Shown piece after piece: positions 15,800 through 34,868 of a DNA stretch of 64,000 nt. The notes under the pieces were generated by a model. That model was not told where the DNA came from. It worked only from the letters and a program-made list of their open reading frames with translations, and ran no database searches. The position numbers and the translations under genes are program-made. The DNA is from Rufibacter tibetensis (lineage in GTDB: Bacteria; Bacteroidota; Bacteroidia; Cytophagales; Hymenobacteraceae), in the NCBI RefSeq assembly GCF_001310085.1, contig NZ_CP012643.1, forward strand, positions 589,001 through 653,000, in the 5' to 3' direction. The stretch's first letter is position 1, and each line of letters starts with the position of its first letter.

Positions 15800-15832
15800 A
15801 TCTGTCTTTGAATGCGCCAGCTTGGGTGGCGT

Positions 15833-18331: not shown

Positions 18332-18364
18332 GTGGTTTTTATTTTGCTGACGCTTGGGTTTAAA

Positions 18365-18411
18365 ATTTTCCTTTCGGGCCAAATCAGTCAAAACAGGCCC
18401 GAAAGGAAAAT
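18365..18411 (-). terminator. hairpin terminator after the TonB receptor gene
   Basis: A perfect 16-bp stem (18365-18380 with 18396-18411) with a 15-base loop. It starts 19 bases after the stop of the TonB receptor on the minus strand; read that way the 3' arm ends in GGAAAAT, so the U-tract is short. It may attenuate rather than fully stop transcription into the catabolic genes. Confidence 0.75.
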
Positions 18412-18429: not shown

Positions 18430-20850
18430 TTAGAAGTTTGCCCGCAGTGAAACGCCGTAGGTTGCCGGGTTACCCAGACGAGCTGCCCCGAAGTTGTAGG
18501 CGTAGTCAATGTATTTATCGTCGGTGAGGTTTCTGCCCCAGAAGAAAACCTCGTAGCGTTTGGCTTGCACACCCACTCTGGCATTAAGGGTGCTGAAGCC
18601 TTCCTGCGTTAACTGGTTTGCCACGTCAAAATATTGTTTGCCTAAGTATCGCCATTCGCCTCTGAGCACCAAACGCAGGTTCTGAGCTTTTCCCAAGCCG
18701 TAGCCGTATTGCAGGGCCAGCATAGACGTAATATCTGGGGTGAAGATCTGCTTGTTTCCGTTTAGGTTTACTTCTTCTCCGTCAGACGAGGTAATGAGGC
18801 TGGTGTACTCGGCATCGGTGTAGCCAAAGCTATAGCTGGTTTCTAGGCCTTTTACTGGGGTGGCATTCAGCTCCAGTTCAACGCCTTTGCTTTCCAATTT
18901 TCCCACGTTTCGGGTAATCACGATGGCTTCAGGCAGCACCAAGGTAGGCACCTGGGCATCGGTCACCTGGGTGTAGAACGCTGAAACATTTGCCGTCACC
19001 CGGTTCTGCAGGAATGCCGTTTTCAGGCCGATTTCATAATTATTGCTGTACTCAGGGTCATAGGCGAACAGCGGCGGCTGCGACGGGTCTGAGGAAAGCT
19101 GGGTGATCCCTCCTGTCCGGAAGCCCCGGCTGTAAGAACCGTACACGTGGTAATCGTCTGAAAGGTGGTACGCCAGGCTTGCCTTGGGCGAGAAAGCCTT
19201 GAAACTAGCTGTGGAGGAAGTATCTGGCACCACTACCATGGCCTCATCGCCATCGGGCTGGAACTCTCCCCTGATGGCTTGTCTGCGGTGCTCATAGTCA
19301 TACCGCAGACCGGCGGTCAGTTCCAGTTTGGGAGTCAATTGGTAGGTTCCCTGCCCGAAGAAAGCTGTTCCATAGCTTTGCCCTTCGTTGATGTTGATGC
19401 TGGTGAAATTAGGGAAGGGAGCGCCCACCATCTCGGCATCTTCCCCGAAGTGCGTTCCCTGTTTCACGGGGTTATCATGGAAGAACCCGTACGCTCCGGC
19501 TACCCAGTTGAAGGCAGAAGTGGTAGAGGCCGGAGAAGAAAACCGAAATTCCTGGGTGAGCACCCGTACTTTGTTCCATTCGCCGTCTAAAAATTTCACT
19601 TTTAGGTTAAAGAACTCTAAAGATTCCCGCTTATCACCATACTTATTCACCACCGTCACGCCACCAATGGGTGAGAAATCTCCGTCTATAGGTTGGTCAT
19701 AAATGCGGGAGTTGGATTGATATGCCGATTGGGAGGTGAAGTTAAAGGCGTCTCCGGTGTGGTTTACGATAAACGACCCGTTGAACGTGTTGTCAATCAT
19801 TTTCCCAGTGGCGTTTTGGCTTAACTCATACGGATTCGCGAAGGCTTCCTCTATGCTGTACACCAGCGGGAAGGCACCCCTATTTCTGTTGGCGCTGTGC
19901 TTAGCGTTCAGCGTCAGGTTCCATTTGGGGTTGATGAGGTACTTGAGGTAGTAATTGCCCGCAAACACGTTCTGTTCGTCAAACTTCGTGTTGTTGAAGG
20001 TGTTGGTGTAGAACCCGTCCTGCTTTCTGAACAGGCCTGAAGCTCCCAAGAACAATTTATCCTTAATCAAGGGAGTTCTCACACCTAGGCTGTACCGCTG
20101 CTGTCCGTAGTTTCCAAACTCAAGGGCTGCAAAACCGCTGGTAGTATTAGTAGGCTGTCTGGTGATGATGTTGATGACCCCACCCATGGCATTGCGGCCG
20201 TACAAGGTGCCCTGCGGCCCCCGGAGGACTTCAATGCGCTCCACATCCAGCAACTCGGGCAGGTAGGTGTCTAAGGTGAATTGATTTACCCCATCCACGT
20301 ACGTGGCCACCGCCGGATCATAGGAGGTAGTGGCAATGCCCCGGATGGAAGTTACATTCCGGTTGTCACCTGGATCAGTAGAGTATAAATTTGGGATGAT
20401 GGCGGTGATGTCACGGGTGTTCCAGAGACGGTACTCCTGCACCTGGCGGCTAGACAAGGCCGTGATACTAATCGGAACGCGTTGCAGGTTCTCTTCAATC
20501 TTCTGGGCACTGACCACCACTTCGTCTAAGCGCGCCGTGGCTTCAGTTAATACAAAAACCAGTTCAGAGCCACTGCTTTGCTGTTGAATGGTTTGGGTAA
20601 AGGTGGCATACCCCAAAGCACTCACTTGCACGGTATAGTTGCCCGCCGGCACATTGGGGATCATGAACTGGCCCTGCTCGTCAGACATGGCATTTAGGTT
20701 GGTATTTAACACTATGATGCTGGCACCCACAATGGGGGTGGTATTTCTATCCTGCACCATTCCGCGCAAAGCGCCTGCGTTCTGACTATACCCGAAGGAA
20801 CAACTGAAAAAGATGAAAAAAACTACTGAGTAAACTACTTTGAATTTCAT
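18430..20850 (-). CDS. TonB-dependent outer-membrane receptor with carboxypeptidase-regulatory-like N-domain
   Basis: 806 residues. A signal peptide (about 1-22, ending FGYSQ) is followed by a carboxypeptidase-D-regulatory-like beta-sandwich (GMVQDRNTTPIVGASIIV), then a plug domain (DEVVVSAQKIEENLQRVPIS, GPQGTLYGRNAMGGVINI) and a 22-strand barrel ending in a terminal Phe. It lacks the SusC signature and has no SusD partner, so it is an ordinary TonB receptor. Its position directly upstream of the L-fucose-type catabolic genes suggests uptake of a fucose-containing oligosaccharide or related ligand (inference). Confidence 0.9.
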   Translation of the reverse strand: MKFKVVYSVVFFIFFSCSFGYSQNAGALRGMVQDRNTTPIVGASIIVLNTNLNAMSDEQGQFMIPNVPAGNYTVQVSALGYATFTQTIQQQSSGSELVFVLTEATARLDEVVVSAQKIEENLQRVPISITALSSRQVQEYRLWNTRDITAIIPNLYSTDPGDNRNVTSIRGIATTSYDPAVATYVDGVNQFTLDTYLPELLDVERIEVLRGPQGTLYGRNAMGGVINIITRQPTNTTSGFAALEFGNYGQQRYSLGVRTPLIKDKLFLGASGLFRKQDGFYTNTFNNTKFDEQNVFAGNYYLKYLINPKWNLTLNAKHSANRNRGAFPLVYSIEEAFANPYELSQNATGKMIDNTFNGSFIVNHTGDAFNFTSQSAYQSNSRIYDQPIDGDFSPIGGVTVVNKYGDKRESLEFFNLKVKFLDGEWNKVRVLTQEFRFSSPASTTSAFNWVAGAYGFFHDNPVKQGTHFGEDAEMVGAPFPNFTSININEGQSYGTAFFGQGTYQLTPKLELTAGLRYDYEHRRQAIRGEFQPDGDEAMVVVPDTSSTASFKAFSPKASLAYHLSDDYHVYGSYSRGFRTGGITQLSSDPSQPPLFAYDPEYSNNYEIGLKTAFLQNRVTANVSAFYTQVTDAQVPTLVLPEAIVITRNVGKLESKGVELELNATPVKGLETSYSFGYTDAEYTSLITSSDGEEVNLNGNKQIFTPDITSMLALQYGYGLGKAQNLRLVLRGEWRYLGKQYFDVANQLTQEGFSTLNARVGVQAKRYEVFFWGRNLTDDKYIDYAYNFGAARLGNPATYGVSLRANF

Positions 20851-21087: not shown

Positions 21088-22374
21088 TTACGCAGCTGCA
21101 TAACGAGAGTCGTTGATCCCCTTGTTTTTTCTGGACCGCATGTACAGAAACAGTCCGCCAAAAGCAAACGCCAGAATAATAGGAATCACCAACGTGGCTT
21201 GCAGTACCTCCGGACCCGCCAGGTTCTTGGCGTTGTTCAGGACAGTGGCCATTTCTGTGTCTGGGGCGGCAGTTACGTAATCTGCCATGTTAGCTCCGGC
21301 CGGTAGACGTTCAGTTACAATTCTGTCATAGAAGCTGCCCATGAATACGGTGTAGATTGACACGGCGAACATACCGGCCCCGCCCATCAGGTTTAAGCCT
21401 AAGGCACCAGACTTAGGGATGTTTTCGGCCACAAAGCCAATCATGGTTGGCCAGAAATACGTCACACCCAAGCCAAATACGATGGCGGCCAAAAAGATGG
21501 AGTTACCGGTAAGCGTGCTTAACAGGTAAATACCCACGGCGGCTAACACGGCAGAAATAAACAACACCCCAGAAGGGCTCAGCTTATGCACTACTGGTTT
21601 CGCCAAACCACGTCCAATCACCATCACGCCGGTAGTAAGCGTTAAAATCAGCAAGGCATTGTCGGTTACGTTTCTCAAAAGAACGTCAATCCACTGCCCG
21701 GTAAACAGCTCTGTGATGGCCGTCCCGAACATGCAGATGAACATGAAGATGAACAGCGGCGACAAAACAGCCTTGTACATGTCAGCGGTGGAGTAACCAG
21801 AAGCAACGCGCTCGGTTACCGGGAAATCTAGTTTAGAGAACAGGTAGCCGTAAATCAGCGTTGGAAGCAACATCATGCCCACCTGTACCTGCCAGCCAAT
21901 CTCCAGCCTGGTGAAGAAAAACACCAGCAAAGTACCTATCACAATACCACCCGGGAACCATAAGTGAAAGTAGTTAAGGCGGGTCGTTTTGTTTTCTGGA
22001 TAGAGTGTAGCTACCAAAGGATTACAGGCAGCTTCTACTGTACCGTTGGCAATACCAATGAGCAAGGTAGAAAGAAACAGGGTCCAGTACCCTTGCGCGA
22101 AGATCGTCAACAGAATACCTAACAGGTGAAAGATGAAAGCTGCCACCAACAAACGCTTCATCCCAATGGCATCTACCACAAAGCCTCCTACCACAATGGC
22201 CAAGGGGAAACCCCAGAACGCAGTAGCGGTAATAGTAGCCAACTCAGAGGCACTTAATTGAAACTCAACGCCCAATTGATTCAGGATTCCGGCCCTAATC
22301 CCGAAGGAAAGGGAAGTAACCAGTAGGGCAAAACAACTCGCCCAGAAGAGCTTTGATCGTTGGATATTTTGCAT
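21088..22374 (-). CDS. MFS transporter, sugar permease type
   Basis: 428 residues with about twelve hydrophobic segments. The first is near 10-30, followed by GGFVVDAIGMKRLL (the loop 2-3 MFS motif). NGTVEAACNPLVATLYP and HLWFPGGIVIGTL resemble sugar:proton symporters of the FucP/GlcP broad group. It probably carries a monosaccharide across the inner membrane for the downstream deoxyhexose pathway. It lies between two strong hairpins and may form its own transcription unit or be joined by read-through. Confidence 0.85.
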   Translation of the reverse strand: MQNIQRSKLFWASCFALLVTSLSFGIRAGILNQLGVEFQLSASELATITATAFWGFPLAIVVGGFVVDAIGMKRLLVAAFIFHLLGILLTIFAQGYWTLFLSTLLIGIANGTVEAACNPLVATLYPENKTTRLNYFHLWFPGGIVIGTLLVFFFTRLEIGWQVQVGMMLLPTLIYGYLFSKLDFPVTERVASGYSTADMYKAVLSPLFIFMFICMFGTAITELFTGQWIDVLLRNVTDNALLILTLTTGVMVIGRGLAKPVVHKLSPSGVLFISAVLAAVGIYLLSTLTGNSIFLAAIVFGLGVTYFWPTMIGFVAENIPKSGALGLNLMGGAGMFAVSIYTVFMGSFYDRIVTERLPAGANMADYVTAAPDTEMATVLNNAKNLAGPEVLQATLVIPIILAFAFGGLFLYMRSRKNKGINDSRYAAA

Positions 22375-22514: not shown

Positions 22515-23570
22515 TTAGGACAAGCCCAGAATTTGCTTGTTCAAGGCTTCATTCACGCCGGTAGACGCGAAATCATCAAAAGCTTTCTCGGTAACCCGGA
22601 TGATGTTGTCCTTGATGAAAATGGCTCCTTCACGGGCACCATCTTCGGGGTGCTTTATGGCGCACTCCCACTCCATCACGGCCCAGCCCTTAAAGTCGTA
22701 AGCGGCTAGTTTGCTGAATATGCCTTTAAAATCCACCTGTCCATCACCTAAAGAACGGAAGCGTCCAGCACGGTCAATCCAGCTTTGGTAGCCACCGTAC
22801 ACGCCCTGCTTTCCTGTTGGGTTGAACTCGGCATCTTTCACATGGAACATTTTGATGCGCTCATGGTAATGGTCAATGTAGGTCAGGTAATCCAGGCACT
22901 GTAACACGAAGTGGGATGGGTCATACAGCAGGCAGGCGCGTGGGTGATTGTTCACTTTCTCCAAGAACATCTCATAGGAAATACCGTCGTGCAGGTCTTC
23001 GCCCGGGTGAATCTCATAGCACAGGTCTACCCCGTGCTCGTCGTAGATATCCAGAATAGGTGTCCAGCGTTTCGCCAACTCGGTGAAACCGGCTTCTACT
23101 AAACCAGCCGGACGTTGCGGCCAAGGGTATACGGTATGCCAAAGCAAAGCACCGCTGAAAGAGGCACTCGCATTTAAACCTAAGTTGCGCGAAGCTTGTG
23201 CAGCATAGGTCAATTGCTGCACGGCCCACTCGGTTCTGGCTTTGGGGTTGTTGCGGTAGGCTTCGGGCGCGAATCCGTCAAACAACTGGTCGTAGGCCGG
23301 ATTCACGGCTACCAATTGCCCCTGTAAGTGCGTGGACAACTCAGTGATTTTCAATCCGTGGCTTTCTACCATGCCCTTGATTTCATCGGCGTAGGTTTTG
23401 CTTTCGGCGGCTTTCTGTAAATCAAAGTAGCTTGTGGCCCATGTAGGTATCTGCACGCCTTCAAAGCCCAGGCTTTTGGCCCATTTACAGATAGATTCTA
23501 AATCATTGAACGGGGGGTTGTCTCCCAGAAACTGCGCCAGGAAAATAGCGGGTCCTTGTATAGTAGTCAT
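22515..23570 (-). CDS. sugar isomerase/epimerase-like TIM-barrel protein (AP_endonuc_2 / xylose isomerase-like)
   Basis: 351 residues of the xylose-isomerase-like TIM barrel. Candidate metal ligands are the Glu in CYEIHPGED, the Asp/His in LLYDPSHF, the His/Asp in MFHVKDAEF and the Glu in AVMEWEC. Such proteins isomerise or epimerise keto-sugars, and some hydrate 2-hydroxy-3-keto-glycals in 3-keto-glycoside pathways. The Gfo/Idh gene ends eight bases upstream, so the two are co-transcribed and likely act on the same intermediate. No signal peptide, so cytoplasmic. Exact reaction unknown. Confidence 0.88.
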   Translation of the reverse strand: MTTIQGPAIFLAQFLGDNPPFNDLESICKWAKSLGFEGVQIPTWATSYFDLQKAAESKTYADEIKGMVESHGLKITELSTHLQGQLVAVNPAYDQLFDGFAPEAYRNNPKARTEWAVQQLTYAAQASRNLGLNASASFSGALLWHTVYPWPQRPAGLVEAGFTELAKRWTPILDIYDEHGVDLCYEIHPGEDLHDGISYEMFLEKVNNHPRACLLYDPSHFVLQCLDYLTYIDHYHERIKMFHVKDAEFNPTGKQGVYGGYQSWIDRAGRFRSLGDGQVDFKGIFSKLAAYDFKGWAVMEWECAIKHPEDGAREGAIFIKDNIIRVTEKAFDDFASTGVNEALNKQILGLS

Positions 23571-23578
23571 CGTCTATG

Positions 23579-24739
23579 CTAGAGGTTAAATTCTATCCAT
23601 TTATTTTCTGATTGGCCGGAGGCAATCACTTGCTCAATGAAGGCCATGCCTCGCACGCCTTCCAGAATCCCCGGGTAATCCAGCGCCTCGGGCTGCGGCT
23701 CTTCGCCGTTGAGGCGGGCTTTCACGCACAGTGCGAAATTGCGGTACAGGTTGGCAAATGCTTCCAAGTAGCCTTCGGGGTGACCACCGGGGGTGCGGGT
23801 GTTATGCTGGGCGTAAGAACCCACGTGTCCACCGCCAGTGCGGTAAATCTCAGCAGGTCTGTCCAGCCATTTCACCAGCAGCGTATTGGCGATGTCCTGC
23901 TGCCAGTCCAAGCCGCCTTTCTCGCCGTACACGCGTATTCTGACGTTGTTTTCCTCGCCGGCCGCAATCTGCGTGGCGAATAGCACGCCACTGGCGCCAT
24001 TGTTGAATTTGAGCAGCGCCGCTCCGTCATCATCTAACAGACGGCCTTCCACCACCACGTTAATATCAGCACAAATTTGAGTTACTTCCAAGCCAGAAAC
24101 GTACTCCGCCAGGTTGAAAGCGTGCGTGCCTATGTCGCCCATGGCTCCCGCGATGCCGCTTTGTTTGGGATCGGTGCGCCAGGCAGCTTGTTTGTTGTCT
24201 CCACCTTCCTCAAAGGTGCTCAACCAGCCTTGTGGGTACTCCACGTACACTTTTCTGATTTTGCCCAGTTTCCCCGAAGCCACCAGTTGCCGGGCTTCTT
24301 TCACCATGGGGTAACCGGTATAAGTATGCGTGAGGCAGAAAAGGTTGCCGGTTCTTTCCACCACTTCTCTGAGCTGCAACGCCTCCTCCAGAGAGAATGT
24401 CATGGGCTTGTCCAAGATGACGTGGAAGCCACTTTCCAACGCCAGTTTGGTAGGCTCAAAGTGCACGTGGTTAGGCGTTACAATGCTGATAACCTGAACG
24501 CGCTGGTCTTCTGGAAGCTGTTGTTCTTTTTCGTAAAGCTCCTGATATGATCCATATACTCGCTCAGGGGAGATGCCCAACAGTAGGCCGCTGGCTTTTG
24601 ATTTTTCTGGATTGCTGCTGAAGGCGCCGCAAACAAGCTCGTATTCCCCATCTATTCGGGCCGCGATGCGGTGAACAGCGCCAATAAATGCGCCTTGTCC
24701 CCCACCTATCATGCCCAGTCTGAGTCTCTGGTTATTCAT
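23579..24739 (-). CDS. Gfo/Idh/MocA family sugar oxidoreductase
   Basis: 386 residues. An N-terminal NAD(P)-binding Rossmann fold ([31 protein letters not shown] with the conserved catalytic Lys in the usual EKP position) precedes the C-terminal alpha/beta domain with [10 protein letters not shown]. Family members oxidise or reduce sugar hydroxyls, commonly at C3 of glycosides. No Tat or Sec signal is visible, so it works in the cytoplasm. Neighbours are an eight-base gap to the TIM-barrel gene and a FucP-like symporter upstream, which fits import followed by C3 oxidation or reduction. Confidence 0.9.
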
Positions 24740-24840
24740 TCGTTTTATTTGTTAGGTTACAGATTGATCGCTTCTAATATATACTTCCTTCCTGTTTAAG
24801 ACCTACTTTCTAAAAAATAGACCTAAAATCAGCACCATGG

Positions 24841-26130
24841 TTACCCACGGGAACCGGTGGCTGTTTTGTAGAATTTATACCCGAACAAGAAAATCACCAC
24901 ATAGCAGATAATGGGCAAATAGTAGGCAGTAGCCACGTCATGATCGGCCACCATGCCCATTAGTGGCGGGAATACAGCTCCGCCTACCACGCCCATGATG
25001 ATGAAGGAAGAAGCCTGCTGCGTTTTAGAACCCATCTCTTTCAAGCCCAAGCTGAAGATGGTGGGGAACATGATACTGAAGAAGAAGTTGATCAGCAGCA
25101 AGGCCACAAACGAGGCCGTTCCCCAACTCTGCGCCACAATCACACACATTACCATAGAGGCCAATGCATACGCCGCCAGTAATTTATTTGGAGCGATGTA
25201 GCGCATGAGGAAAGCACCGGAGAAACGGCCCACCATCATCAAGACCATGCTCAAAGAGAAATAATAGGAAGCCATTTCAGCGGGAAGTCCCATTTTCTCC
25301 TTTCCGTAGGTGATGAAGAATGCCCACGTGCCGCCTTGGGCCGCCACGTTGAAGAACTGTGCAATACAGGCCCATACAAAGTGCCGATGCTGAAACAGGC
25401 TTTTGGGTTTGTTTTCTGAAATCAGGCCATTTCCGGCCTGAGCAGCGTCAGAAGGACTTTCATGCGGGTCTACCAAAGCCGGCACTTTCACAAACGCGAA
25501 AGCAATGGCCAACAGCAGAATAACAGAGCCAATGATGGTGTACAGCACCTCCACAGAATCTAACTCTCCCGGGGTGCCCGTGCGCAACAGGAAGTAACCG
25601 CCAATCACCGGCCCGATCACAGCGCCCAAGCCGTTGAAGGCCTGCGCGAAATTCAGGCGTTGGTCACTGGTGCGCTGGTCGCCTAAGGCCGCAATAAACG
25701 GGTGGGCTACCGCCTCCAAGGTGGCTAGTCCGCAGCCTAGAATGAAAAGCGCCAGGCGGAAGAAGTCAAAGGATTCGGCGGCTGCCGCCGGAACAAATAG
25801 GAACGCCCCGATGGAATAAAGACACAGCCCCAGCAACACGCCCATTTTGTACCCGAACCGTTTCATGAACAGCCCCGCTGGAATGCCCATCAGGAAATAC
25901 GCCCCAAAAATGGAAAACTGCACCAATCCAGATTGCGCCTTAGAGACCTTGAGCACCTCCTGGAAGTGGGTGTTCAGCACGTCGCCCATGGTAATGGCAA
26001 TGCCCCAGAGCATAAACAGGGAAGTCACAAAGACAAATGTGACCAGGTACTTCTTCTCGGTGAAAGCAGGTTTGCTTTCCTCCTGATACCCGGCATTGGT
26101 CACATTTTTAGTTGCAGTTACTTCTGTCAT
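24841..26130 (-). CDS. FucP-like sugar:H+ symporter (MFS)
   Basis: 429 residues, twelve predicted helices. It closely follows the FucP/NagP layout: FVTSLFMLWGIAITM in helix 1, LVQFSIFGAYFLMGIPAGL in helix 2, KRFGYKMGVLLGLCLYSIGA in the loop and helix 3, a LATLEAVAHPFI segment and NFAQAFNGLGAVIGPVIGG. FucP-type carriers bring in L-fucose, N-acetylglucosamine or other hexoses with a proton. Here it precedes the Gfo/Idh and TIM-barrel genes and may import their substrate, although the nearby L-fucose pathway is another possible user. Confidence 0.9.
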   Translation of the reverse strand: MTEVTATKNVTNAGYQEESKPAFTEKKYLVTFVFVTSLFMLWGIAITMGDVLNTHFQEVLKVSKAQSGLVQFSIFGAYFLMGIPAGLFMKRFGYKMGVLLGLCLYSIGAFLFVPAAAAESFDFFRLALFILGCGLATLEAVAHPFIAALGDQRTSDQRLNFAQAFNGLGAVIGPVIGGYFLLRTGTPGELDSVEVLYTIIGSVILLLAIAFAFVKVPALVDPHESPSDAAQAGNGLISENKPKSLFQHRHFVWACIAQFFNVAAQGGTWAFFITYGKEKMGLPAEMASYYFSLSMVLMMVGRFSGAFLMRYIAPNKLLAAYALASMVMCVIVAQSWGTASFVALLLINFFFSIMFPTIFSLGLKEMGSKTQQASSFIIMGVVGGAVFPPLMGMVADHDVATAYYLPIICYVVIFLFGYKFYKTATGSRG

Positions 26131-26318
26131 GGGCGGTACCTTTGGTTAGACGTTGTTTGAATATAGGGTTTATTTTGAAGGGATAAAATAACTCCTAAAA
26201 GCCTCTGCTAAATCATGCTGGTTTAAGCGGTATTTTAGAAAAACAACCTCTAAATGAAATGGCCACTTTGTGTCACTAGCTTAGATCAATTAGTAGTTAA
26301 ACTCATTTAACCTTCACC

Positions 26319-26413
26319 CTTTGTCATCCTGAACGGATCTAGTGAACGAACCAGAACTGCCCTGAGAACTTGGTAGTATTGTTCGTTCACTAGATCCGTT
26401 CAGGATGACAAAG
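26319..26413. repeat. 33-bp inverted repeat of the CATCCTGA (REP-like) type
   Basis: Perfect 33-bp arms (26319-26351 and 26381-26413) separated by 29 bases. Each arm begins with CTTTGTCATCCTGAACGGAT. GTCATCCTGA-type repeats are common dispersed palindromes in bacterial genomes, including Hymenobacter relatives (general knowledge). It sits between the secreted fusion-protein gene and the FucP-like gene, eleven bases after the stop at 26424. It may act as a terminator or mRNA-stabilising element, separating the two halves of the cluster. Confidence 0.9.
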
Positions 26414-26423
26414 AAGTGGTAAA

Positions 26424-29400
26424 CTATTGTTTATTCACCTTACTGAGGACCACAGAAGAGCCTGCACTTCTGCCCTCAGGGGTGAAGGTGACCGTTTTCA
26501 AAAGCGGCCTATTGTTTCCGCCACCCTTTATTTCCTTAAAGATGATGTACACATCTGTGGCGCGCAGATTGAGAGGAACTTGAATTGGAATACTAGTGCT
26601 CACGATCTGTCCTTTGTTACCGAAGGCCATACGTCCGCTTCCTATTCTCTGACCATTTACCTGCCCAATTCTAACTTCCACGGCATACGTGCCCAGGTAC
26701 CCACTGTTCACTGCGGCTAGGTCAATAGAACCAATGTCTGTTAAATCCAGAGTTTCTTTGATCCAGCCTTCATTTGCAGGAAACACCAGGAATTTGCTTC
26801 CTGAGGAGTCTCTACTGGTAAAACCCTTTACCTGCTTGAATTCAGATACATCTACCCGGTTACTTCTTAGTTGAACGGCGTTAGAACCCATCAACGGTTT
26901 CAAGCCCGTGCCACCCTCATGGGTGTAAGTAGCGGTGACTTTCAGGACGGTGTTTTCTTTCTTCTGCTCGGCTACCCTTGGCACAATCTCTCCCCTGGCC
27001 GGAAGCGAGGGCTTGGTGTTAGTGGGGCTGGCTAGAGAAAGGATCCAGGAAACGATCTGCCGGGCATCTGCCTCTGACATGTCTGGGTGGGCTGGCATGG
27101 CATTCTCGCCCCACACACCGCCGCCGCCTTTGATGATCTTGTTCGTAAGATGCGACGTGGCCTTGGGGTTCTTGAGGTACCGTTTAGAAACGTCTACGTA
27201 GGCCGGCCCTATGGATTTCTCGTCTATTTTATGGCAGCCTTTGCAATCTGAGTTTTCCATAAGCGTTCTGCCCACCAAGGTGGCGGAGGCAACCTGGTGC
27301 CCCATGGAGGCGCCCGCTAAGTCTTTTCCTTCTATGTATTCAGCAGACACGAAAAGGTTCTCTGGTTTCACCTGGCCGCCTGGAGTGGCTACATGCACCT
27401 GGTACCTGATAGGTGTTCCCTCAAAATAGAAGCTTTGGTTGCCCGGCAAAGCCACCACCACGTTGGGCTGCTCATTACCAGCGTACACGGTTACGGACCT
27501 GTTTCCGGAGGTTGCCTTTTCTGAATCAATGACTTCTACCTGTATGTCATAATCTCCTGCCCTGGTGAAGGTATGTTCCAGTTGCGGGGTATCCGTTAGC
27601 TTCTTAAGCCCGTTGATTGTCCAGAGGTATTTCAGGTTATCTTTCTCCGGATCTGCCACTTCTACGGTAGCATTTACCGTGAAAGGAAGCAAACCGCTTT
27701 GACGGTCTACGGTTAGGTTCGTGATTTTAGGAGGACGGTTCCCGGAAAGGTAATCTACTCTGGAAAGGGCGGCATCTGGGTTTCCGGTGAACCATCCTTT
27801 TCCGTATTCCAGAATGTAAAGCTTCCCGTCTGGCCCAACCTCCATGTCCATGATGGCGGCAAATTTTTCATTCTCCATGAAGGGTTCCATCTTATCAAAG
27901 TCACCATTTTCTTTCATGGATACTACTTTGATCCAGTCCCTGATCCAGTCATAGATAAAGAGCTTGCCATGGTAGTACTCCGCATACCGGGTTTTTTCAG
28001 GCAACAAATCTGTGTAATATACCGGACCCGCCATGGCGTTACGTCCGCCCGTGCCTACCTGCGGAAAGTCTGGCGAAGCATCATAGGGGTACCAGATAAA
28101 CGCCGGTTGGGCCGCTGGCAGATTTACAATACCGGTGTTATTAGGTGAATCATTGACGGGTTTCGCAGGATTGAAAGTTTCACCGGAAGTACCATTAGCA
28201 TAGTTATACCTGTGGTAGGCGTAGTTGTTCGCCACGAACAGCGGCCAACCAAAATTACCGGCTTTACGAGCCTGGTTTACTTCATCATATCCTTTGGGTC
28301 CTCTGGTGGCTAAGCTATCGGTTTTTGCATCTGGTCCTACTTCGCCCCAATACAGGAACCCATTTTTAGGATCCACAGAGATCCGGTACGGGTTGCGGTG
28401 GCCCATGGTATAGATTTCAGGTCTGGTTTTCGTCTGGTTTCTGGGGAACAGATTGCCCTTGGGTATTTCATAGGAGCCATCTTCTTTTACCTTGATCCTG
28501 ATTACTTTTCCACGCAAATCATTGGTATTGCCAGAGGTTCTTCTGGCATCATACTTCTCATGGCCCGGACGATCATCTAAAGGTGCGTACCCTTGGTTTG
28601 TATAGGTTTGTCCTTTTTCATCAAAGGGCGTGCTGTTGTCTCCGGTAGAAAGGTACAGCAGGTTGTCTGGGCCAAAGGCAATAGAGCCGCCCGTGTGGCA
28701 GCAGATCTGGCGCTGGGAATACAGTTGCAGAATAATCTTCTCAGAGGCCATGTCCAGTTTGTTGTTCCTGAAGACAAAGCGGGAAAGCCTGTTCACGGAA
28801 GTATCTGCGGGGCTATAATAGAGATAAATAAAATTGTTTTTCTTGAAGTCAGGGTCTTTGGCTAGTCCCATCAGTCCTTCTTCTGCATTTTCACTGGAGC
28901 TGGAGGTATGGTACACATCCAGAAAGCCTGCCTGCTGCAAAGAGCCATTGCCCTGGTTGTATAACATGAGCTCGCCCCGGCGCTGGGCTACCAATACATC
29001 CAGGTTAGGCAGGATGGTCATTTCAGTGGGCTCGGTAAACTTGCCTTTCGTCAGCACGGTTTTCACAAACCGGTCCTCCTCCGGTACTCTTAGAGCGGTT
29101 ACTTTTTCAAAGTCTAGCTCTTTGTTATCGCCCATGGCGTATTGGAGACCACCCAGCAAATGCTGCAGGAAAAGAGGGTCTTTGTAAGATTCTTCAGTAT
29201 GGCCCAAAGCGGTGTAGAAAGAGCGCCCGCCCTCAAAATCATGGTACCAGGCAACTGGGTGGTTGGCGCCGTTGGTGCCTCCTTTGTAGCTTTTTTCATC
29301 TAAGGTCAGCAATACTTTTACATCCTTGCTGAGGTTTTTGAAGTTGTACCACTCATCTTTTCTTTTCCATTCTTTAGGCAAATGGGCGGTAGCATCGTTC

Positions 29401-29894
29401 TCTTCCTGGGTGACGCGCACTACAGCCTGCTGTTGTTCAGGGTGTCCGTTAAAATAAGCACCTACCAATCTGCCGTACCAGCCCCAGTCATATTCTGTAT
29501 CTGTGGCGGCATGAACGCCCATAAAGCCTCCGCCAGCCTGTATGTATCTCTGAAAATCCGCTTCCTGATAATGGTTCAGGACATCACCGGTAGTACTCAG
29601 AAATACCACAGCGGCGTACTTCTTTAGAGAATCTTCCTGAAAATAAGCGGCGTTGGTAGTTGTATCTACTGCAAACCCATTCTTCTTGCCTAACTCCACA
29701 AAGGCGGTATTACCATCTGCAATAGCAGTATGATGGTACCCGCTGGTTTTACTAAACACTAATATTCTGGGGTCTCCGTCCCGTTTTCCGCAGGAAGCAA
29801 AAAGGAACAGGGCAGCAAAGAGAAGCATGACTGAAACACGCAACTCTTTCCGGCCTGATTTTCCAGAATCAGGCGTAAAGGGGATGTGTGACAT
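26424..29894 (-). CDS. secreted multidomain lipoprotein: ThuA, PQQ-type sugar dehydrogenase propeller, PKD, cytochrome c and C-terminal CBM-like domain
   Basis: About 1156 residues from the ATG at 29894. A further upstream ATG at 30029 lacks signal-peptide sense, and one at 29828 would give a very short signal. A lipobox (LFLFASC) implies outer-membrane or periplasmic anchoring. Domains in order: ThuA-like (RILVFSKTSGYHHTAIADG, GGGFMGVHAATDTEYDW); a six-bladed glucose/sorbosone dehydrogenase propeller (EPTEMTILPNLDVLVAQRRG, AEEGLMGLAKDPDF, GQTYTNQGYAPLDDRPGHEK); a PKD-like domain; cytochrome c with CKGCH (27231-27245) and Met ligand AMPAHP; and a CBM6-like beta-sandwich. It would oxidise a sugar and pass electrons to its own heme. 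ThuA relates to glycoside 3-keto metabolism. The order of domains is common in Bacteroidetes but the enzyme activity is undefined. Confidence 0.88.
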   Translation of the reverse strand: MSHIPFTPDSGKSGRKELRVSVMLLFAALFLFASCGKRDGDPRILVFSKTSGYHHTAIADGNTAFVELGKKNGFAVDTTTNAAYFQEDSLKKYAAVVFLSTTGDVLNHYQEADFQRYIQAGGGFMGVHAATDTEYDWGWYGRLVGAYFNGHPEQQQAVVRVTQEENDATAHLPKEWKRKDEWYNFKNLSKDVKVLLTLDEKSYKGGTNGANHPVAWYHDFEGGRSFYTALGHTEESYKDPLFLQHLLGGLQYAMGDNKELDFEKVTALRVPEEDRFVKTVLTKGKFTEPTEMTILPNLDVLVAQRRGELMLYNQGNGSLQQAGFLDVYHTSSSSENAEEGLMGLAKDPDFKKNNFIYLYYSPADTSVNRLSRFVFRNNKLDMASEKIILQLYSQRQICCHTGGSIAFGPDNLLYLSTGDNSTPFDEKGQTYTNQGYAPLDDRPGHEKYDARRTSGNTNDLRGKVIRIKVKEDGSYEIPKGNLFPRNQTKTRPEIYTMGHRNPYRISVDPKNGFLYWGEVGPDAKTDSLATRGPKGYDEVNQARKAGNFGWPLFVANNYAYHRYNYANGTSGETFNPAKPVNDSPNNTGIVNLPAAQPAFIWYPYDASPDFPQVGTGGRNAMAGPVYYTDLLPEKTRYAEYYHGKLFIYDWIRDWIKVVSMKENGDFDKMEPFMENEKFAAIMDMEVGPDGKLYILEYGKGWFTGNPDAALSRVDYLSGNRPPKITNLTVDRQSGLLPFTVNATVEVADPEKDNLKYLWTINGLKKLTDTPQLEHTFTRAGDYDIQVEVIDSEKATSGNRSVTVYAGNEQPNVVVALPGNQSFYFEGTPIRYQVHVATPGGQVKPENLFVSAEYIEGKDLAGASMGHQVASATLVGRTLMENSDCKGCHKIDEKSIGPAYVDVSKRYLKNPKATSHLTNKIIKGGGGVWGENAMPAHPDMSEADARQIVSWILSLASPTNTKPSLPARGEIVPRVAEQKKENTVLKVTATYTHEGGTGLKPLMGSNAVQLRSNRVDVSEFKQVKGFTSRDSSGSKFLVFPANEGWIKETLDLTDIGSIDLAAVNSGYLGTYAVEVRIGQVNGQRIGSGRMAFGNKGQIVSTSIPIQVPLNLRATDVYIIFKEIKGGGNNRPLLKTVTFTPEGRSAGSSVVLSKVNKQ
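29853..29880. repeat. GCCTG-type palindrome at the 5' end of the ThuA-fusion gene
   Basis: GCCTGATT / AATCAGGC (29853-29860 with 29867-29874), followed by GTAAAG. It shares CAGGCGTAAA and the hairpin layout with the element at 20952-20985. It lies just inside the chosen start codon and encodes part of the lipoprotein's N-terminal leader. Confidence 0.55.
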
Positions 29895-30118
29895 AAGTGC
29901 ATGCTGCCCGGCTGAATGGACCTGAGCTGAAGTTAATTTTCCTAAAGTCAAAAGTGACTTGAAGTATGCCATTGTAGAAGGAAAAAGTAAAACGAAATTA
30001 GTTAAAAAACAGGTAAGATAGTCCTCCATTGACTTGCTCTTGATTTTCTGTTTAGAGGCTCTTTTGCTAAAAATCTGCTCTAGACAGAAGGTCAGGTTTA
30101 TATCAATTCACCAGCTAC

Positions 30119-30907
30119 TTACAGTTCTCTGATCCAGATATTGCGGTAACTCACGGGGTTGCCGTGGTCTTGCAGGCTGATGGAAGCTTTGCCGTGCGCC
30201 TTGTATTCAGGCAAACCGATGTACTCGGTTGGGCCTTTCAGTTCCACGTTGTTCTGCACCAATACGCCGTTGTGAATAACCGTAACCCGGGCTGGAGTAA
30301 AGAGCGAGCCATCTTCCTTGAAACGGGGAGCGGTGTAAATGATATCGTACACGTTCCACTCGGTGGGTTTGTTCATGGCGTTTACCAACGGACGGTGCTG
30401 TTTGTAAATGCTGCCGGCTTGTCCGTTAGAATACGTGCGGTTGTTATAGGAATCCAGTACCTGTACCTCGTAGCGGTCTTGCAGGAAGATGCCGCTGTTG
30501 CCGCGGCCCTGGCTGGTGCCTTTCACTTCATCAGGGGCGCTCCATTCCACGTGCAGCTGAAAATCCCCGAATTCCTTTTTAGTGGAGATATCGCCTTTGC
30601 CTACGGTGAACGCTCCGTTTTTCACTTCCCATTTGGCATCTCCGCCGCCATCCTTCGCTTTCCAGGCAGTAAGGTCTTTCCCGTTGAACAAGACTATCGC
30701 ATCAGAAGGCGCAGCATTGTTCACCCCGGGAGTTACTTTGCGCGGCTCCGGCTCCCAGAACTCCGTCATCTCAGGGACCATCTTAGGTGGTTTGGGAACC
30801 TCCTGGGTTTGGGCGTTTGCCTGAGAACCTACAAACAAACCAATAGCAATAAGGGTGAAAGAAAACGTAGAAGTAAACGAAGGGGACATATGTATGACTG
30901 ATTTCAT
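30119..30907 (-). CDS. DUF1080 (3-keto-disaccharide hydrolase domain) secreted protein
   Basis: 262 residues with a signal peptide ending near SQANAQT; an ATG at 30889 is an alternative start. The whole mature part is a concanavalin-like DUF1080 domain: IVLFNGKDLTAWKAKDGG, TKKEFGDFQLHVEWSAP, RGNSGIFLQDRYEVQVLDSY, KPTEWNVYDIIYTAPRF, VTVIHNGVLVQNN and the ending ISLQDHGNPVSYRNIWIREL. DUF1080 proteins hydrolyse or eliminate 3-keto-glycosides. Genes for a second DUF1080 protein, a ThuA/PQQ/cytochrome fusion and a Gfo/Idh enzyme are in the same run, supporting a role in oxidative glycoside cleavage in the periplasm. Confidence 0.9.
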   Translation of the reverse strand: MKSVIHMSPSFTSTFSFTLIAIGLFVGSQANAQTQEVPKPPKMVPEMTEFWEPEPRKVTPGVNNAAPSDAIVLFNGKDLTAWKAKDGGGDAKWEVKNGAFTVGKGDISTKKEFGDFQLHVEWSAPDEVKGTSQGRGNSGIFLQDRYEVQVLDSYNNRTYSNGQAGSIYKQHRPLVNAMNKPTEWNVYDIIYTAPRFKEDGSLFTPARVTVIHNGVLVQNNVELKGPTEYIGLPEYKAHGKASISLQDHGNPVSYRNIWIREL

Positions 30908-30959
30908 TTTTAAAGCATTTTCTAGAGACGGAGGCGAAAACGCCCCGGCGTGTGGGAGG

Positions 30960-32975
30960 CTATCTTAAGGTATTGATCCAGGCGGCAATCTTGAGCGCCT
31001 CACCTTTCGGAACCTGCGGCATAGGCGGCATGGGTGTGGCGTACGTAGGCCAGTTCTCTGGTTTAGGGTTATGGATGAGCTCTACAATTCGCTGGTTGGT
31101 GTACTTCCGCTTCGCTATTTCCCGGAAACCTGGGCCCACCTGTTTCTTTTCAGTGGTGTGGCAGGCAAGGCAGGTGTTCTTGGCCAGCAACGGTTTCACG
31201 TCATTGAACGTCAGGGCTACGGGAGCCGGAGCGGCTTTAGGCGTGGGCTTGGTAGCAGTAGCGTCTGTTGCTCCTGCTTTTTTTGCAGGGGTTTTGGTAG
31301 TTGCCTTTCCAGAGCCACTTGTTTTAGCCGTCGATGCCTTTAACGCTACGTCTTTAGACTTTGTGACTGCGGCTGAGTTTTTGGTGCTTACTTCTTTTAT
31401 CGCCAGCTTATCACCTTCGGGAATAGCGTTCAAGGTGTAGTAAGCGGCCGGGTGCACCAGGGTATAATAATTTTCCTTCGCCCGCACGCCATCTAACTTG
31501 AGCAGGTGAATGTACCCTTCCCGCAGATTGTCCACGATCAGGCGGGCTTTCATGCCATCTTCAGACAGCTTCACTCCTTTAATAGCCAGTTGCTTTGCGT
31601 TCACAGGCGGACTACCGTACACAGGATGGTACTTATAGATGTAGCTCTCCACGGAATAGGAAGCCAGGTCTTCAGCCGATTTCCGGTCTACCGGGGTAGT
31701 AAACTCCACCTCAAAGCCGTCAGGCTTAGCACTTACGGTTCTCATTTCAAACGGAACTTTGTTGTTCCAGATCAAGCGCTGCAAGCCTTCCATGGCCTCA
31801 CCGGCGGCACCCCACCCGCGGGCAGTTTCCCCCACAAACAGGGAATTGTCCTTAGCCCAGGCCATGCGCAGCACGCCCGATTGGAAACCACTCCGGAAGT
31901 CTAAGGCCACGCCCTGGAACTCGCCTTTGACTTTCTCCAGCACTACCCGCATAATTTTGCTTTGGCCCTGATCCCCCACCAGCAGCTGTCCTTCAAACGG
32001 CCCGAAGTGTCCCTGGGGAATTTGCAGGGGTTCAGAGTTGGAGATGCCCAGAATGCCGTGCGGCAGCCAGACGGCCGGCAGTTGCATGGCCGGGAACTGC
32101 TTTTTCATGTCAAACATGGTCACATAAGGCTCATTCACCTTGTTCTCTGGTTTCACGTGTCCGCCTTGTGCATCTTTCTCAAAACGCGGGTTTATTTTGG
32201 CATAGACCTGTTCCTGGTTCATTTTCACGGGGGAAGCAGGCTGGTTGGCCCAACGTAGACCACCCGGGTGCACGGTAAATGCACCTTTCTTCACGTGCCA
32301 CACGCCGCCAGACCCAACCCAGTCGCCCTGGTTTTCGGTGTAGAACATTTCGCCGTCAACTATTCCAATACCCGCTGGGGAGCGCAAGCCGGTGGCCCAG
32401 GGCTCCATCTTGCCTTCTGGAGAGATGCGCAGCATCCAGCCGCGCCAAGGCACCAGACTGGTCGCGTGCCACCACGGGTCTGGGAAACCCAAGTTGGTGG
32501 TCACGAAGAAAGACCCGTCCTGCGCTATTTTAGGTCCGAAGCTGTATTCATGATAGTTCCCGGACAAGGGCCAGGCGTACACAGTTTCAAACAGATCTGC
32601 TTTGCCGTCATTGTTCGTGTCGGTGAGTTTAGTGAGTTCGCCGCGCTGGGCGCAGTACAGGGAACCGTCTTTGTAGGCCAGCCCCAATACCTCATGCAAG
32701 CCGGCGGCAAACTTCCGGAAGTGGGGTTTGGGGCTGGTGGGGTTCTCTACAATGAAAATGTCGCCGCGGCGGGTGGAGATGCCTAAATCGCCGTTGGGCA
32801 GGACCACCAGACCACCTACTTCCAGCAACGTGCCTTCGGGCGAGGGCAAACGCAAGATCTTGAAAAAGTCTTCTTCCATAGGCGACTCCTGCGCGGCTGC
32901 GGTTTGCGGCGAACCGGCAAAAAGAGCCCCAGCCATTAGGAAAGGCAGAAAGAACTTCTTTCGTAATTGTATCAT
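30960..32975 (-). CDS. secreted beta-propeller (heme/PQQ dehydrogenase-like) with linker and C-terminal cytochrome c
   Basis: 671 residues. Signal peptide about 1-28 (FLPFLMAGALFAG, then AAAQES). Residues about 35-400 form a beta-propeller of the sorbosone-dehydrogenase/membrane-bound dehydrogenase type (PNGDLGISTRRGDIF, TDTNNDGKADLFETVYAWPL, GLRSPAGIGIVDGEMFYTEN). A beta domain follows, then a Lys/Thr/Ala/Pro-rich linker (about 540-590) and a class I cytochrome c with CLACH (31158-31172) and Met ligand MPPMPQVP. The propeller could oxidise a sugar or polyol while the linked heme passes electrons onward. The DUF1080-PA14 gene ends 18 bases upstream and the second DUF1080 gene follows within 52 bases, so one transcript is likely. 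Confidence 0.87.
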   Translation of the reverse strand: MIQLRKKFFLPFLMAGALFAGSPQTAAAQESPMEEDFFKILRLPSPEGTLLEVGGLVVLPNGDLGISTRRGDIFIVENPTSPKPHFRKFAAGLHEVLGLAYKDGSLYCAQRGELTKLTDTNNDGKADLFETVYAWPLSGNYHEYSFGPKIAQDGSFFVTTNLGFPDPWWHATSLVPWRGWMLRISPEGKMEPWATGLRSPAGIGIVDGEMFYTENQGDWVGSGGVWHVKKGAFTVHPGGLRWANQPASPVKMNQEQVYAKINPRFEKDAQGGHVKPENKVNEPYVTMFDMKKQFPAMQLPAVWLPHGILGISNSEPLQIPQGHFGPFEGQLLVGDQGQSKIMRVVLEKVKGEFQGVALDFRSGFQSGVLRMAWAKDNSLFVGETARGWGAAGEAMEGLQRLIWNNKVPFEMRTVSAKPDGFEVEFTTPVDRKSAEDLASYSVESYIYKYHPVYGSPPVNAKQLAIKGVKLSEDGMKARLIVDNLREGYIHLLKLDGVRAKENYYTLVHPAAYYTLNAIPEGDKLAIKEVSTKNSAAVTKSKDVALKASTAKTSGSGKATTKTPAKKAGATDATATKPTPKAAPAPVALTFNDVKPLLAKNTCLACHTTEKKQVGPGFREIAKRKYTNQRIVELIHNPKPENWPTYATPMPPMPQVPKGEALKIAAWINTLR

Positions 32976-32993
32976 CTATACTGTCTTAATCAA

Positions 32994-34838
32994 TTAGTAA
33001 AGAATAGAATAGGCTACCTTGCCCTGCATGGGAATCACCAGCTCCTGACGGCCACCCACGCTGCGAACCATGGGTTTAGCCCCGCCGGTCTCGTCCAGGC
33101 GCACATAGTAGGCTTTGTCGTCTACCAGGTACATGCCCTTGCCTATCTCCTCAATTTTAGCTCCTTCTACCAAACGGGCCATTAAACCCGCCGCTGAGTT
33201 CTGCACACTCAGTTCGCGCCGCAGCCCTTTGCCATTTTCAATGATCCGGATGGCGTCCTGCACGTTAGCCCCGTAGATCTGGTACAGGAAAGTAGGCTCT
33301 GAATTCTGGTCTAGCTGGTAGCCCTTCGGGCGGAAGGAAGTGCCCGTGGTGTCAGAAATCCAGGCGGCCTGGTCTGAGGCAAGTCTGGCTACCATAGTGG
33401 TAGGTTTCCCGAAATAATGGATGGAACCAATAGCTTTAGAAGAACCATCGCCGCGCTCGTGCCACATGGGCGTGGCATCTAAAAAGCCACCGCGCCACAG
33501 TTGCACAATGGCCCCTTTGTCCAGGTCATAGGTATAATGCAGCTGCGTTGGACTGCCTACCGACACGGCGTGGGTTACCCGGTGGTTACCGGGCAGGTCA
33601 ATGAAGCTTCTCAGCACCGGCCGCTCCTTTACATCCACTAAAATGGGATTAATCTCTTCAGACAGGATTTCTTCGGTAATCAGAAATTCACGTACGCCCG
33701 GCCCAGCTATTTTCAAGGCTAGAGCCGGTCTTCCCCAGTCCATGGTTTTGGAATAGAGTAGCTCAAACGGCACCTCGCCAGCGGGCAGCACCGCCGTTCC
33801 TCTGCCATTCCAGGTTTTCATGGGCAGAATCTCCTGCTTGTTTACCCTGATAAGACCTGCGCCGGCTGGAGTGTCCATGTTAAACGTGTATTCGCCGGGC
33901 TCCTTCACCACCAGGGTTCCGGTGTAGCGCAGCAGGAACTGCTTGGCATCATTGTTTAAGGTGGAAGTCAGGATATTGGACGGCCCCTGCGGACCTTCTG
34001 CCTCTGGGGGCAAGCTGTCATATTTGGGCTCTTTTTGGAATTTCCCCTTATAAATGTGGTAGGTTAATCCTTTAAGTTCAGGACGAGGCTTGCTGTACTG
34101 GCTCACTTTGATGTTGCGGAAAGCCACGGCACCGTGGTCTCCCTGAAATCGTAGCGGTCCAGTAGCTTTTTCGTCGTTGCTAATAGCGCCCCGGGTGGGC
34201 CCGAACAATTCCACTTCCTCCTGGATGGTGACGCCATTCAGTTCTACCAGCAGCAGTTTGGCGTTCTCTATTTTCTTGCCCGCAGCGTCAAAGCGGGGCG
34301 CCTGAAAAGAAATCTTCAAGTGTTGCCACAACCCTGGCGCTCTTCCCGCATTCTGGCGGGGCGCATATCCCTGGTAACCTTTCTGTCCTTCGGGGCGACT
34401 TTCATCCCAGCGCTCGTAGACACCGCCGTTGCTGGCTGCTGTGCGCTCTGTAGTTCCCCAGTTGTCTGCCAGTTGCAGCTCATAGCGCCCCTGCAGGTAA
34501 ATACCGGAGTTTGACCCTTTGGCCATCATGTAATCCAACTCCAGGTCCAGGTCGCCGTGCTCAAAGTTGGTGAGGAGGTCTTGTCCCTTGATTTTCCTGG
34601 TGGGCTGGTTTACCAAGATTCCTCCTCCTGCGTTGGTGGTGAGTTTATTAGCCTCAGAGAGACTTGCGCCAACGTTGGCAGCTACAAACCAGCTTTTGCC
34701 TGGGTTCTGGAAGGAAGACAGATCAGTAAGCGGAAGTTGGTTGCTTTGGCTAAGAACAGGACTAGTGACAGCTAAACAGGCCAAAAAAGAACCGGCCAGG
34801 GCTCCCCATTTAAGACGTGATAATCGAGGTTTGGGCAT
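32994..34838 (-). CDS. secreted DUF1080 protein with PA14-like and C-terminal domains
   Basis: About 614 residues from ATG 34838, which starts a normal signal peptide (PKPRLSRLKWGALAGSFLA, cleavage near PVLSQ); ATG 34868 would add ten residues. Residues about 45-240 are a DUF1080 domain (GSNSGIYLQGRYELQLADNW, GLWQHLKISFQAPRFD, RFQGDHGAVAFRNIKVSQY). A PA14-like segment follows (YRYTGTLVVKEPGEYTFN-type pattern: LLRYTGTLVVKEPGEYTF, WGRPALALKIAGPGV). The last 200 residues are a beta-rich domain I do not recognise. It leads the row of secreted oxidative-sugar proteins and may bind and cleave a 3-keto-glycoside. The PA14-like part may bind carbohydrate. Confidence 0.85.
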   Translation of the reverse strand: MPKPRLSRLKWGALAGSFLACLAVTSPVLSQSNQLPLTDLSSFQNPGKSWFVAANVGASLSEANKLTTNAGGGILVNQPTRKIKGQDLLTNFEHGDLDLELDYMMAKGSNSGIYLQGRYELQLADNWGTTERTAASNGGVYERWDESRPEGQKGYQGYAPRQNAGRAPGLWQHLKISFQAPRFDAAGKKIENAKLLLVELNGVTIQEEVELFGPTRGAISNDEKATGPLRFQGDHGAVAFRNIKVSQYSKPRPELKGLTYHIYKGKFQKEPKYDSLPPEAEGPQGPSNILTSTLNNDAKQFLLRYTGTLVVKEPGEYTFNMDTPAGAGLIRVNKQEILPMKTWNGRGTAVLPAGEVPFELLYSKTMDWGRPALALKIAGPGVREFLITEEILSEEINPILVDVKERPVLRSFIDLPGNHRVTHAVSVGSPTQLHYTYDLDKGAIVQLWRGGFLDATPMWHERGDGSSKAIGSIHYFGKPTTMVARLASDQAAWISDTTGTSFRPKGYQLDQNSEPTFLYQIYGANVQDAIRIIENGKGLRRELSVQNSAAGLMARLVEGAKIEEIGKGMYLVDDKAYYVRLDETGGAKPMVRSVGGRQELVIPMQGKVAYSILY

Positions 34839-34868
34839 TAGGTATACTAGTTTTACAAATTGCTGCAT

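Follow-up and report, generated by a model that had tools for sequence, protein, structure and literature searches.

Introduction

The oxidase of the LacABC system is a GMC flavoprotein that passes its electrons to a cytochrome c, and in the BT2156-BT2160 pathway of Bacteroides the oxidation is carried out by Gfo/Idh enzymes. Here we compare these and other described systems with a locus in a 64,000-nucleotide stretch of the Rufibacter tibetensis genome (assembly GCF_001310085.1, contig NZ_CP012643.1, positions 589,001 to 653,000; hereafter the window, numbered from its first letter), centred on two adjacent minus-strand genes coding for a DUF1080 protein (32994-34868) and a propeller protein with a C-terminal cytochrome c (30960-32975).

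A scheme in which LacABC oxidizes lactose in the periplasm and a DUF1080 protein then hydrolyses the 3-ketolactose has been proposed for Caulobacter and, on the basis of gene clusters, for Bacteroidetes (PMC9007349). The window resembles this system in coding for two DUF1080 proteins that, judged by eye, are secreted, and differs from it in its candidate oxidase, which joins propeller and carrier in a single polypeptide and is not a GMC protein. No GMC gene was found in the window, and among the annotated loci the GMC query matched only two open reading frames (ORFs), one in L082 and one in L011, a LacABC-like locus of the same R. tibetensis genome (contig C1, 1385639-1394042) that holds GMC, Gfo/Idh, cytochrome c and DUF1080 genes and a weak TIM-barrel relative. 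A sequence-only reading of the window had offered periplasmic 3-keto cleavage as new; given L011 and the scheme already in PMC9007349, we rejected this, and the new part would therefore be the propeller-carrier oxidase.

DUF1080, Gfo/Idh and TIM-barrel proteins also occur together in the BT2156-BT2160 pathway, as annotated in PMC10434189. Assignment of the window Gfo/Idh protein to the BT_2158 or BT_2159 family was rejected (28.3 bits against a cut-off of 750 and 24.1 bits against 650, respectively; NCBIfam). The GlycDH-OGE-hydratase-Gfo system of Agrobacterium/Rhizobium likewise oxidizes, eliminates, hydrates and reduces by Gfo, the Gfo step yielding glucose in Agrobacterium, but it uses another oxidase and a TIM-barrel eliminase, and the main text of PMC10628242 does not name DUF1080.

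The pyrroloquinoline quinone (PQQ) sugar dehydrogenases (sGDH, Asd, AA12) share the propeller fold, and the heme-bearing pyranose dehydrogenase of Coprinopsis shares a built-in electron carrier. The window propeller differs from the PQQ enzymes in that it scores below the GSDH model, has a PQQ site only partly in register, is tied to DUF1080 and belongs to a family in which the carrier may be copper. The non-phosphorylative L-fucose pathway comprises an L-fucose dehydrogenase, a fuconolactonase, a fuconate dehydratase, a fumarylacetoacetate (FAA) hydrolase and a short-chain dehydrogenase/reductase (SDR). The window holds an L-fucose dehydrogenase, a fuconolactonase-like protein, an FAA hydrolase, an SDR and a FucP-like transporter, and differs from that pathway in having no fuconate dehydratase recognized in the cluster and in sitting with the propeller/DUF1080 module. 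No description of a propeller-carrier and DUF1080 pair was found in the literature covered, which left out most subscription papers.

Results

The 30960-32975 protein was searched against 395 genomes of the phylum, its own included, scoring three candidates per genome at most (two for the ThuA fusion described below), so that paralogues may be missed, and was matched in 42 genomes (E ≤ 1e-20). Fifty-eight neighbourhoods, which do not include the matches in G034, G131 and G234, were retrieved and annotated with profiles of the domains in the window, and the main count comprises the 50 propellers scoring at least 450 bits, including the window protein and its paralogue in the same genome. The partner, recognized by a profile spanning PA14 and the part that follows it, was coded directly upstream on the same strand for 49 of the 50 propellers, with L062 the only one without. 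The electron carrier was in the same chain in 44 of the 50 (29 with a cupredoxin and 15 with a cytochrome c), and each of the remaining six, carrier-less propellers immediately followed a gene coding for a cupredoxin protein. The partner contained DUF1080 for 41 of the 44 carrier-fused propellers (the score in L066 being borderline), two more had the same partner with no detectable DUF1080 (L085 and L078, the latter truncated at a contig end), and one followed neither kind of partner; DUF1080 and PA14 thus accompany the carrier-fused kind of module.

A second sample comprised the 80 best loci selected from named genomes (with L160, whose propeller is split over two ORFs, outside the 80 rows). 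The partner was upstream in 78 of the 80 rows at a median gap of 12 bp, and 74 of these 78 partners carried DUF1080; the two rows without a partner were L135, at a contig start, and L149 (Runella zeae). Four rows were without a carrier: L126 and L148, both cut by a contig end, L130, which is short, and L153, which is of the split type. At least 587 propeller relatives were present among 590 scanned stretches. The conserved core is a pair, consisting of a DUF1080/PA14/DUF6797-like protein followed by a propeller with an electron carrier. The sequence-only reading had tied secreted propeller-carrier proteins to DUF1080, and for the 30960 family the linkage bears this out, with secretion judged by eye; it had also named the occurrence of the two fusions away from DUF1080/Gfo-Idh genes as evidence against itself, and here the 30960 family adjoins a DUF1080 gene in 41 of 44 carrier-fused cases, whereas the ThuA fusion is mostly away from DUF1080, which one of its 20 retrieved loci holds. 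Neighbour clustering of the loci revealed no single catabolic context.

The kind of carrier differed between modules. In the paralogous pair of the same genome, on contig C2, a plastocyanin/azurin-type domain takes the place of the cytochrome c of the window protein. A tree of 64 propeller domains placed cytochrome c in two separate clades, with the starred branches forcing at least two changes of carrier, although the tree was built with a quick method that gave long-branch warnings and sampled 13 of the 80 loci from named genomes. The cytochrome metal motif (CXXCH and a later Met; CLACH in the window protein) was intact in 91 of 91 cases, and the cupredoxin motif HN...Cx4Hx3M in all 29 fused and all seven split cases. 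In the gammaproteobacterium Catenovulum adriaticum, carrier-less propellers on two plasmids each follow a c-type cytochrome that passes the Pfam cut-off for Cytochrome_CBB3, with DUF6797 below the cut-off in one cytochrome partner and GH16, GH2 and sulfatase genes near one locus. Both carriers occurred together in L101 (8425-14340) and L103 (4703-10754), where a propeller with a heme site (and DUF6797 in L101) is adjacent to a protein ending in a cupredoxin. The simplest reading is that the carrier accepts electrons from the propeller, and a redox role of the pair is probable. The proposal that the C-terminal domain serves electron transfer, made from the sequence alone, gains from the exchange of heme and copper carriers.

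The window propeller resisted assignment by sequence. Its cytochrome c lies at residues 597-670, while the propeller itself displayed only weak traces of DUF7133 (Pfam) and ScyE, with no match to GSDH (PF07995) at E 0.001. A split-type relative reached 20.5 bits, under the GSDH cut-off of 25, and alignment of the window propeller to the GSDH domain of the ThuA fusions (hhalign) gave E 6.6e-5 and a probability of 63.8. A PDB sequence search with the propeller profile gave only designed Pizza proteins and NHL-type kinase domains, and a search by fold was therefore needed. The AlphaFold2 model (53 sequences; mean pLDDT 85.0, pTM 0.79) was compared with the PDB by Foldseek, and the ten best rows, representing eight entries, were all glucose/aldose-sugar dehydrogenases of the GDH/Asd type (TM-score by target 0.57-0.72, identity 13-17%). 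Five of the eight entries are titled or named PQQ, Asd or soluble glucose dehydrogenase and the other three (2ism, 7cdy, 7cgz) glucose dehydrogenase. The modelled propeller thus appears to have the fold of a PQQ dehydrogenase, and its cofactor may be PQQ or another.

The partner (32994-34868, likely start 34838) has a DUF1080 domain at residues 79-255, a PA14-like part below the Pfam cut-off and a C-terminal DUF6797-like part, and appears secreted. Its AlphaFold2 model (pLDDT 88.8) matched 4qhz, 8v31, 9fbe/8rr2 and 8tda in Foldseek together with PA14/flocculin lectins. The structures 8v31 and 8tda are titled 3-keto-2-hydroxy-glucal hydratase, and 9fbe and 8rr2 3-keto-glycoside eliminase/hydratase. 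A second, apparently secreted DUF1080 protein is coded at 30119-30907 (minus strand; Pfam 161 bits; 4qhz at E 1.2e-86), and members of its cluster are found in 25 of 91 cytochrome-type loci, in 12 of these on the same strand. The PF06439 domain and fold are present in the window DUF1080 proteins, and both retain the histidine of a C-terminal [Q]DHG motif, as QDHG in 30119 and GDHG in 32994. An H275N variant of the Bacteroides thetaiotaomicron lyase is deficient in hydration (PMC13273386), and H275 may be the DHG histidine. DUF6797-like domains were located in the C-terminal third of 32994-34868, in L094 (10218-11351) and L207 (10526-11902), and in L101 and L102.

Ten fused or distant propellers below 450 bits (L093 and L095-L103) lie outside the 50. 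In L093, L095 and L096 cytochrome c, PA14, propeller and DUF1080 are joined in a single chain of about 1223 residues; L097-L099 have cytochrome c, PA14 and propeller with DUF1080 absent, and in L102 the propeller chain is without heme and the cupredoxin is a separate gene. The next gene in L093 and L096 codes for a Gfo/Idh protein 61-62% identical to that of the window, and in L100 a 52% Gfo/Idh homologue and a 32% TIM-barrel homologue stand beside the propeller chain. The Gfo/Idh link is therefore supported outside the lineage of the window. L088 (2414-4429) codes for a ThuA-DUF6807 fusion, with a split-type propeller a few genes away.

The sequence-only reading had counted two propeller-cytochrome c fusions. 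Both are indeed fused, but they belong to different families, as 26424-30029 (minus strand, likely start 29894) has a recognizable GSDH domain and 30960-32975 has not (Pfam). The former comprises ThuA (88-298), GSDH (332-620), PKD (784-847) and cytochrome c (920-999) domains, and in an alignment with 1c9u/8re0 its GSDH domain retains the PQQ-site residues His and Arg-Asn. It is predicted to be exported, as a lipoprotein by eye only, and a strict lipobox pattern was not met. The ThuA fusion was matched in 102 of the 395 genomes (E ≤ 1e-60), many through the ThuA part alone. In 20 chosen fusion loci the propeller pair was never found, DUF1080 occurred in one (L199) and a weak Gfo/Idh match in three (L194, L195, L199). 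Conversely, a GSDH-cytochrome gene lay within 10 kb of the pair in nine of the 80 loci (L104, L124, L127, L141, L142, L152, L165, L166 and L179). Membership of the fusion in the core was rejected because its loci are mostly unlinked to DUF1080, and it is accessory.

The seven minus-strand ORFs and families described from the sequence alone between 22515 and 34838 were all recovered (Pfam, NCBIfam). These genes do form part of a run on one strand, though a gap of 293 bp (26131-26423), the largest in the run, separates the ThuA fusion from the FucP-like gene. The run also reaches further than had been described, with the fucose-type genes downstream left out, and comprises thirteen genes from 34868 to 15020 with intergenic gaps of -8 to 293 bp. 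Downstream of the ThuA fusion are a FucP-like L-fucose:H+ symporter of the major facilitator superfamily (MFS) at 24841-26130 (TIGR00885, 339.7 bits, cut-off 280.4), a Gfo/Idh/MocA oxidoreductase at 23579-24739 and an AP_endonuc_2-type TIM barrel at 22515-23570 (both Pfam). Signal-peptide-like N-termini were seen (by eye and crude hydrophobicity) on the four upstream proteins and not on the Gfo/Idh protein or the TIM barrel.

Six genes lie beyond the original seven, all on the minus strand: an MFS transporter (21088-22374; Pfam), a TonB-dependent receptor (18430-20850; Pfam), an SDR that may be a 2-keto-3-deoxy-L-fuconate dehydrogenase (17567-18391; Pfam), an FAA-hydrolase family protein like 2,4-didehydro-3-deoxy-L-rhamnonate hydrolase (16653-17504), an amidohydrolase like L-fucono-1,5-lactonase (15833-16660) and a second SDR, an L-fucose dehydrogenase (15020-15799; NF052481, 415 bits, cut-off 300). 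Both the L-fucose dehydrogenase and FucP models thus exceeded their curated cut-offs, and the lactonase-like and FAA-hydrolase-like proteins matched L-fucose/L-rhamnose families below theirs (267 of 400 and 349 of 500 bits, respectively). A fuconate dehydratase was not recognized in the cluster, and four MR_MLE_C genes occur elsewhere in the genome.

Eleven of the thirteen genes are kept in identical order in Sabulibacter ruber (L104, genome G395), namely DUF1080-PA14, propeller-cytochrome, DUF1080, ThuA-GSDH-cytochrome, Gfo/Idh (92% identity), TIM barrel (95%), MFS (85%, same position), SDR (83%), FAA hydrolase (89%), lactonase-like (73%) and L-fucose dehydrogenase (83%), without counterparts of the Rufibacter FucP and TonB genes. 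This conserved order indicates that the gene run is more than chance. Relatives of the TonB receptor (51-60%) were found in six loci, in five of which, all from Pedobacter, they lie directly downstream of the pair.

GH29 genes were near six of 91 cytochrome-type loci. The cupredoxin module of the R. tibetensis genome lies with GH95 and GH28 genes on contig C2, which also carries the one GH29 of the genome. L-fucose dehydrogenases accept D-arabinose and L-galactose too. Our best guess for the sugar of this locus is L-fucose or a look-alike, and other lineages may use other sugars; an L-fucoside as the substrate here is a tentative assignment.

Beside the cupredoxin module, C2:187069-191760 (L009:7069-11760, minus strand) codes for an SBF-type transporter, a DUF1537-type kinase and a RuBisCO-like protein, together with a short gene resembling an Asp/Glu racemase by eye. 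This gene set resembles a D-apionate pathway, and the C2 block with GH28 and GH95 is perhaps a pectin region on the 235-kb contig. Outside the run, the minus strand of the window carries a GH2 beta-galactosidase-like gene and a GH53 galactanase gene (41503-45197), and a flavin amine oxidase gene that abuts an ORF resembling a pyridoxal-dependent decarboxylase by eye (37024-39561).

Discussion

Gene content, linkage, the carrier swap, the sugar-dehydrogenase fold of the propeller and the DUF1080 fold of its partner were computed directly, and from them we infer a redox activity, a cofactor, a C3 position, an order of steps and a substrate. The propeller (30960-32975) would oxidize a hydroxyl on the ring of a bound glycoside, with C3 as the likeliest position, and electrons would pass from it through its own cytochrome c into the respiratory chain. 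Its DUF1080 partner (32994-34868), aided by the second DUF1080 protein, would bind the glycan and split the resulting 3-keto-glycoside through elimination and hydration. After import of the released 3-keto sugar or glycal, the cytoplasmic Gfo/Idh enzyme would restore the plain sugar, the TIM barrel acting as a hydratase or an eliminase. The sugar, here probably L-fucose or a close relative, would then enter the downstream oxidative pathway (15020-18391). We put the probability that the core is a secreted oxidise-and-cleave pair, with the whole mechanism as proposed, at roughly 0.42; the combination of C3 oxidation with DUF1080 cleavage, taken by itself, is close to an even possibility. The wider proposal of a new class of respiratory glycoside oxidase, comprising propellers of the GSDH fold that fall outside the known PQQ families and may use another cofactor, with exchangeable cytochrome c or cupredoxin, periplasmic C3 oxidation, a DUF1080 eliminase and non-hydrolytic release of L-fucose, is more speculative and on balance doubtful.

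Several observations weigh against this mechanism. Known GSDH/AA12 enzymes oxidize mainly C1. DUF1080 is not universal, because none of the six split-type partners, which are cupredoxin proteins, and only three of the ten distant chains contain it. These split partners match the partner profile only in part, behind PA14 (with Pfam DUF6797 below the cut-off in L094), so that the constant companion of the propeller is a DUF6797-like domain; this C-terminal domain and not DUF1080 appears from the profile matches to be the part common to all partners, and it may be key to the module. The DUF1080 domain of the pair is divergent (83 bits). In PMC9007349 one DUF1080 protein of this architecture is described as an endo-xanthanase/lichenase, and none of ten DUF1080 genes of Pedobacter sp. 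GW460-11-11-14-LB5 had a lactose phenotype.

The redox side of the mechanism also meets difficulties. L100 has PA14 and a propeller with no carrier seen. By hhalign, R198 falls on the PQQ arginine and S199 on the neighbouring Asn, with H142/E143 one to two positions off the His; we take the PQQ-site residues to be His144, Arg228 and Asn229 (sGDH numbering). H142 is Ala in two of 28 aligned sequences, both split-type propellers. PqqC was absent from all 42 genomes with a propeller match, in a search that, as a positive control, found the PqqC of a Rhizobium plasmid. PQQ as the proven cofactor of the 30960 propeller was rejected for this reason, and of the PQQ-type propellers of the sequence-only reading the fold is supported for 30960, with PQQ itself one possible cofactor. 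PQQ is taken up from the surroundings in E. coli, and scavenging is possible. Cytochrome oxidase (COX1) was present in 42 of 42 propeller genomes, a test that does not discriminate because 372 of the 395 genomes carry it.

The assignment to fucose is weakened by the neighbourhoods. Fucose-type genes beside the module were seen only in Sabulibacter and L076, and in the latter, a distant cupredoxin module whose pair is succeeded by an SDR (59%), an FAA hydrolase (64%) and a further SDR, none of these genes exceeded a fucose or rhamnose cut-off. GH92 genes, in addition, were near 14 of 91 cytochrome-type loci.

The alternative that survives best, which we regard as unlikely, is that the propeller is a C1 aldose dehydrogenase of the Asd/AA12 kind and its DUF1080 partner a hydrolase or lectin, the freed reducing ends being oxidized to lactones that enter a lactonase/acid-sugar pathway. 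The glucose and aldose dehydrogenases that make up the fold matches oxidize C1, and the fuconolactonase-like gene within the cluster and the split-type modules without DUF1080 fit the same picture. Xanthan-degrading glycosidase activity has, moreover, been proposed or described for DUF1080 proteins (PMC5673643 and PMC9007349). The lactonase and the L-fucose dehydrogenase, however, have no signal peptide by eye and would therefore be cytoplasmic, those solved DUF1080 relatives whose titles state a function are 3-keto-glycoside eliminases/hydratases, and C1 oxidation leaves the tie between carrier-fused propellers and DUF1080 unexplained.

It is improbable that the propeller is a docking or lactonase-like scaffold with no oxidase activity whose carrier serves another enzyme. 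The partly lost PQQ site with its two Ala substitutions, the missing PqqC and the carrier-less L100 would agree with such a role, as would the lactonases and hedgehog-interacting protein that share the propeller fold further down the Foldseek list. Against it, all 50 counted propellers had a carrier in cis or in the adjacent gene, this carrier has switched between heme and copper, and the invariant polar residues of the 28 aligned sequences include Q110, E113, R198, N215 and R343. That the ThuA-GSDH-cytochrome c fusion is the real oxidase and the 30960 pair processes only its product is highly improbable, since 71 of the 80 loci have the pair without a GSDH-cytochrome gene and the fusion loci are nearly devoid of pair and DUF1080, despite its retained PQQ-site residues, its same place in Sabulibacter and the nine loci with such a gene near the pair.

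DUF1080 enzymes of 3-keto pathways need a prior oxidase, and the propeller module is a widespread candidate with a built-in electron acceptor. That relatives keep the pair together while exchanging heme for copper suggests an oxidative breaking of sugar linkages, perhaps those of fucose, that takes place outside the cell interior and does not depend on water alone. If true, the module would give aerobic degradation of 3-keto-glycosides a second, unrelated oxidase and would offer an oxidative alternative to the action of fucosidases.

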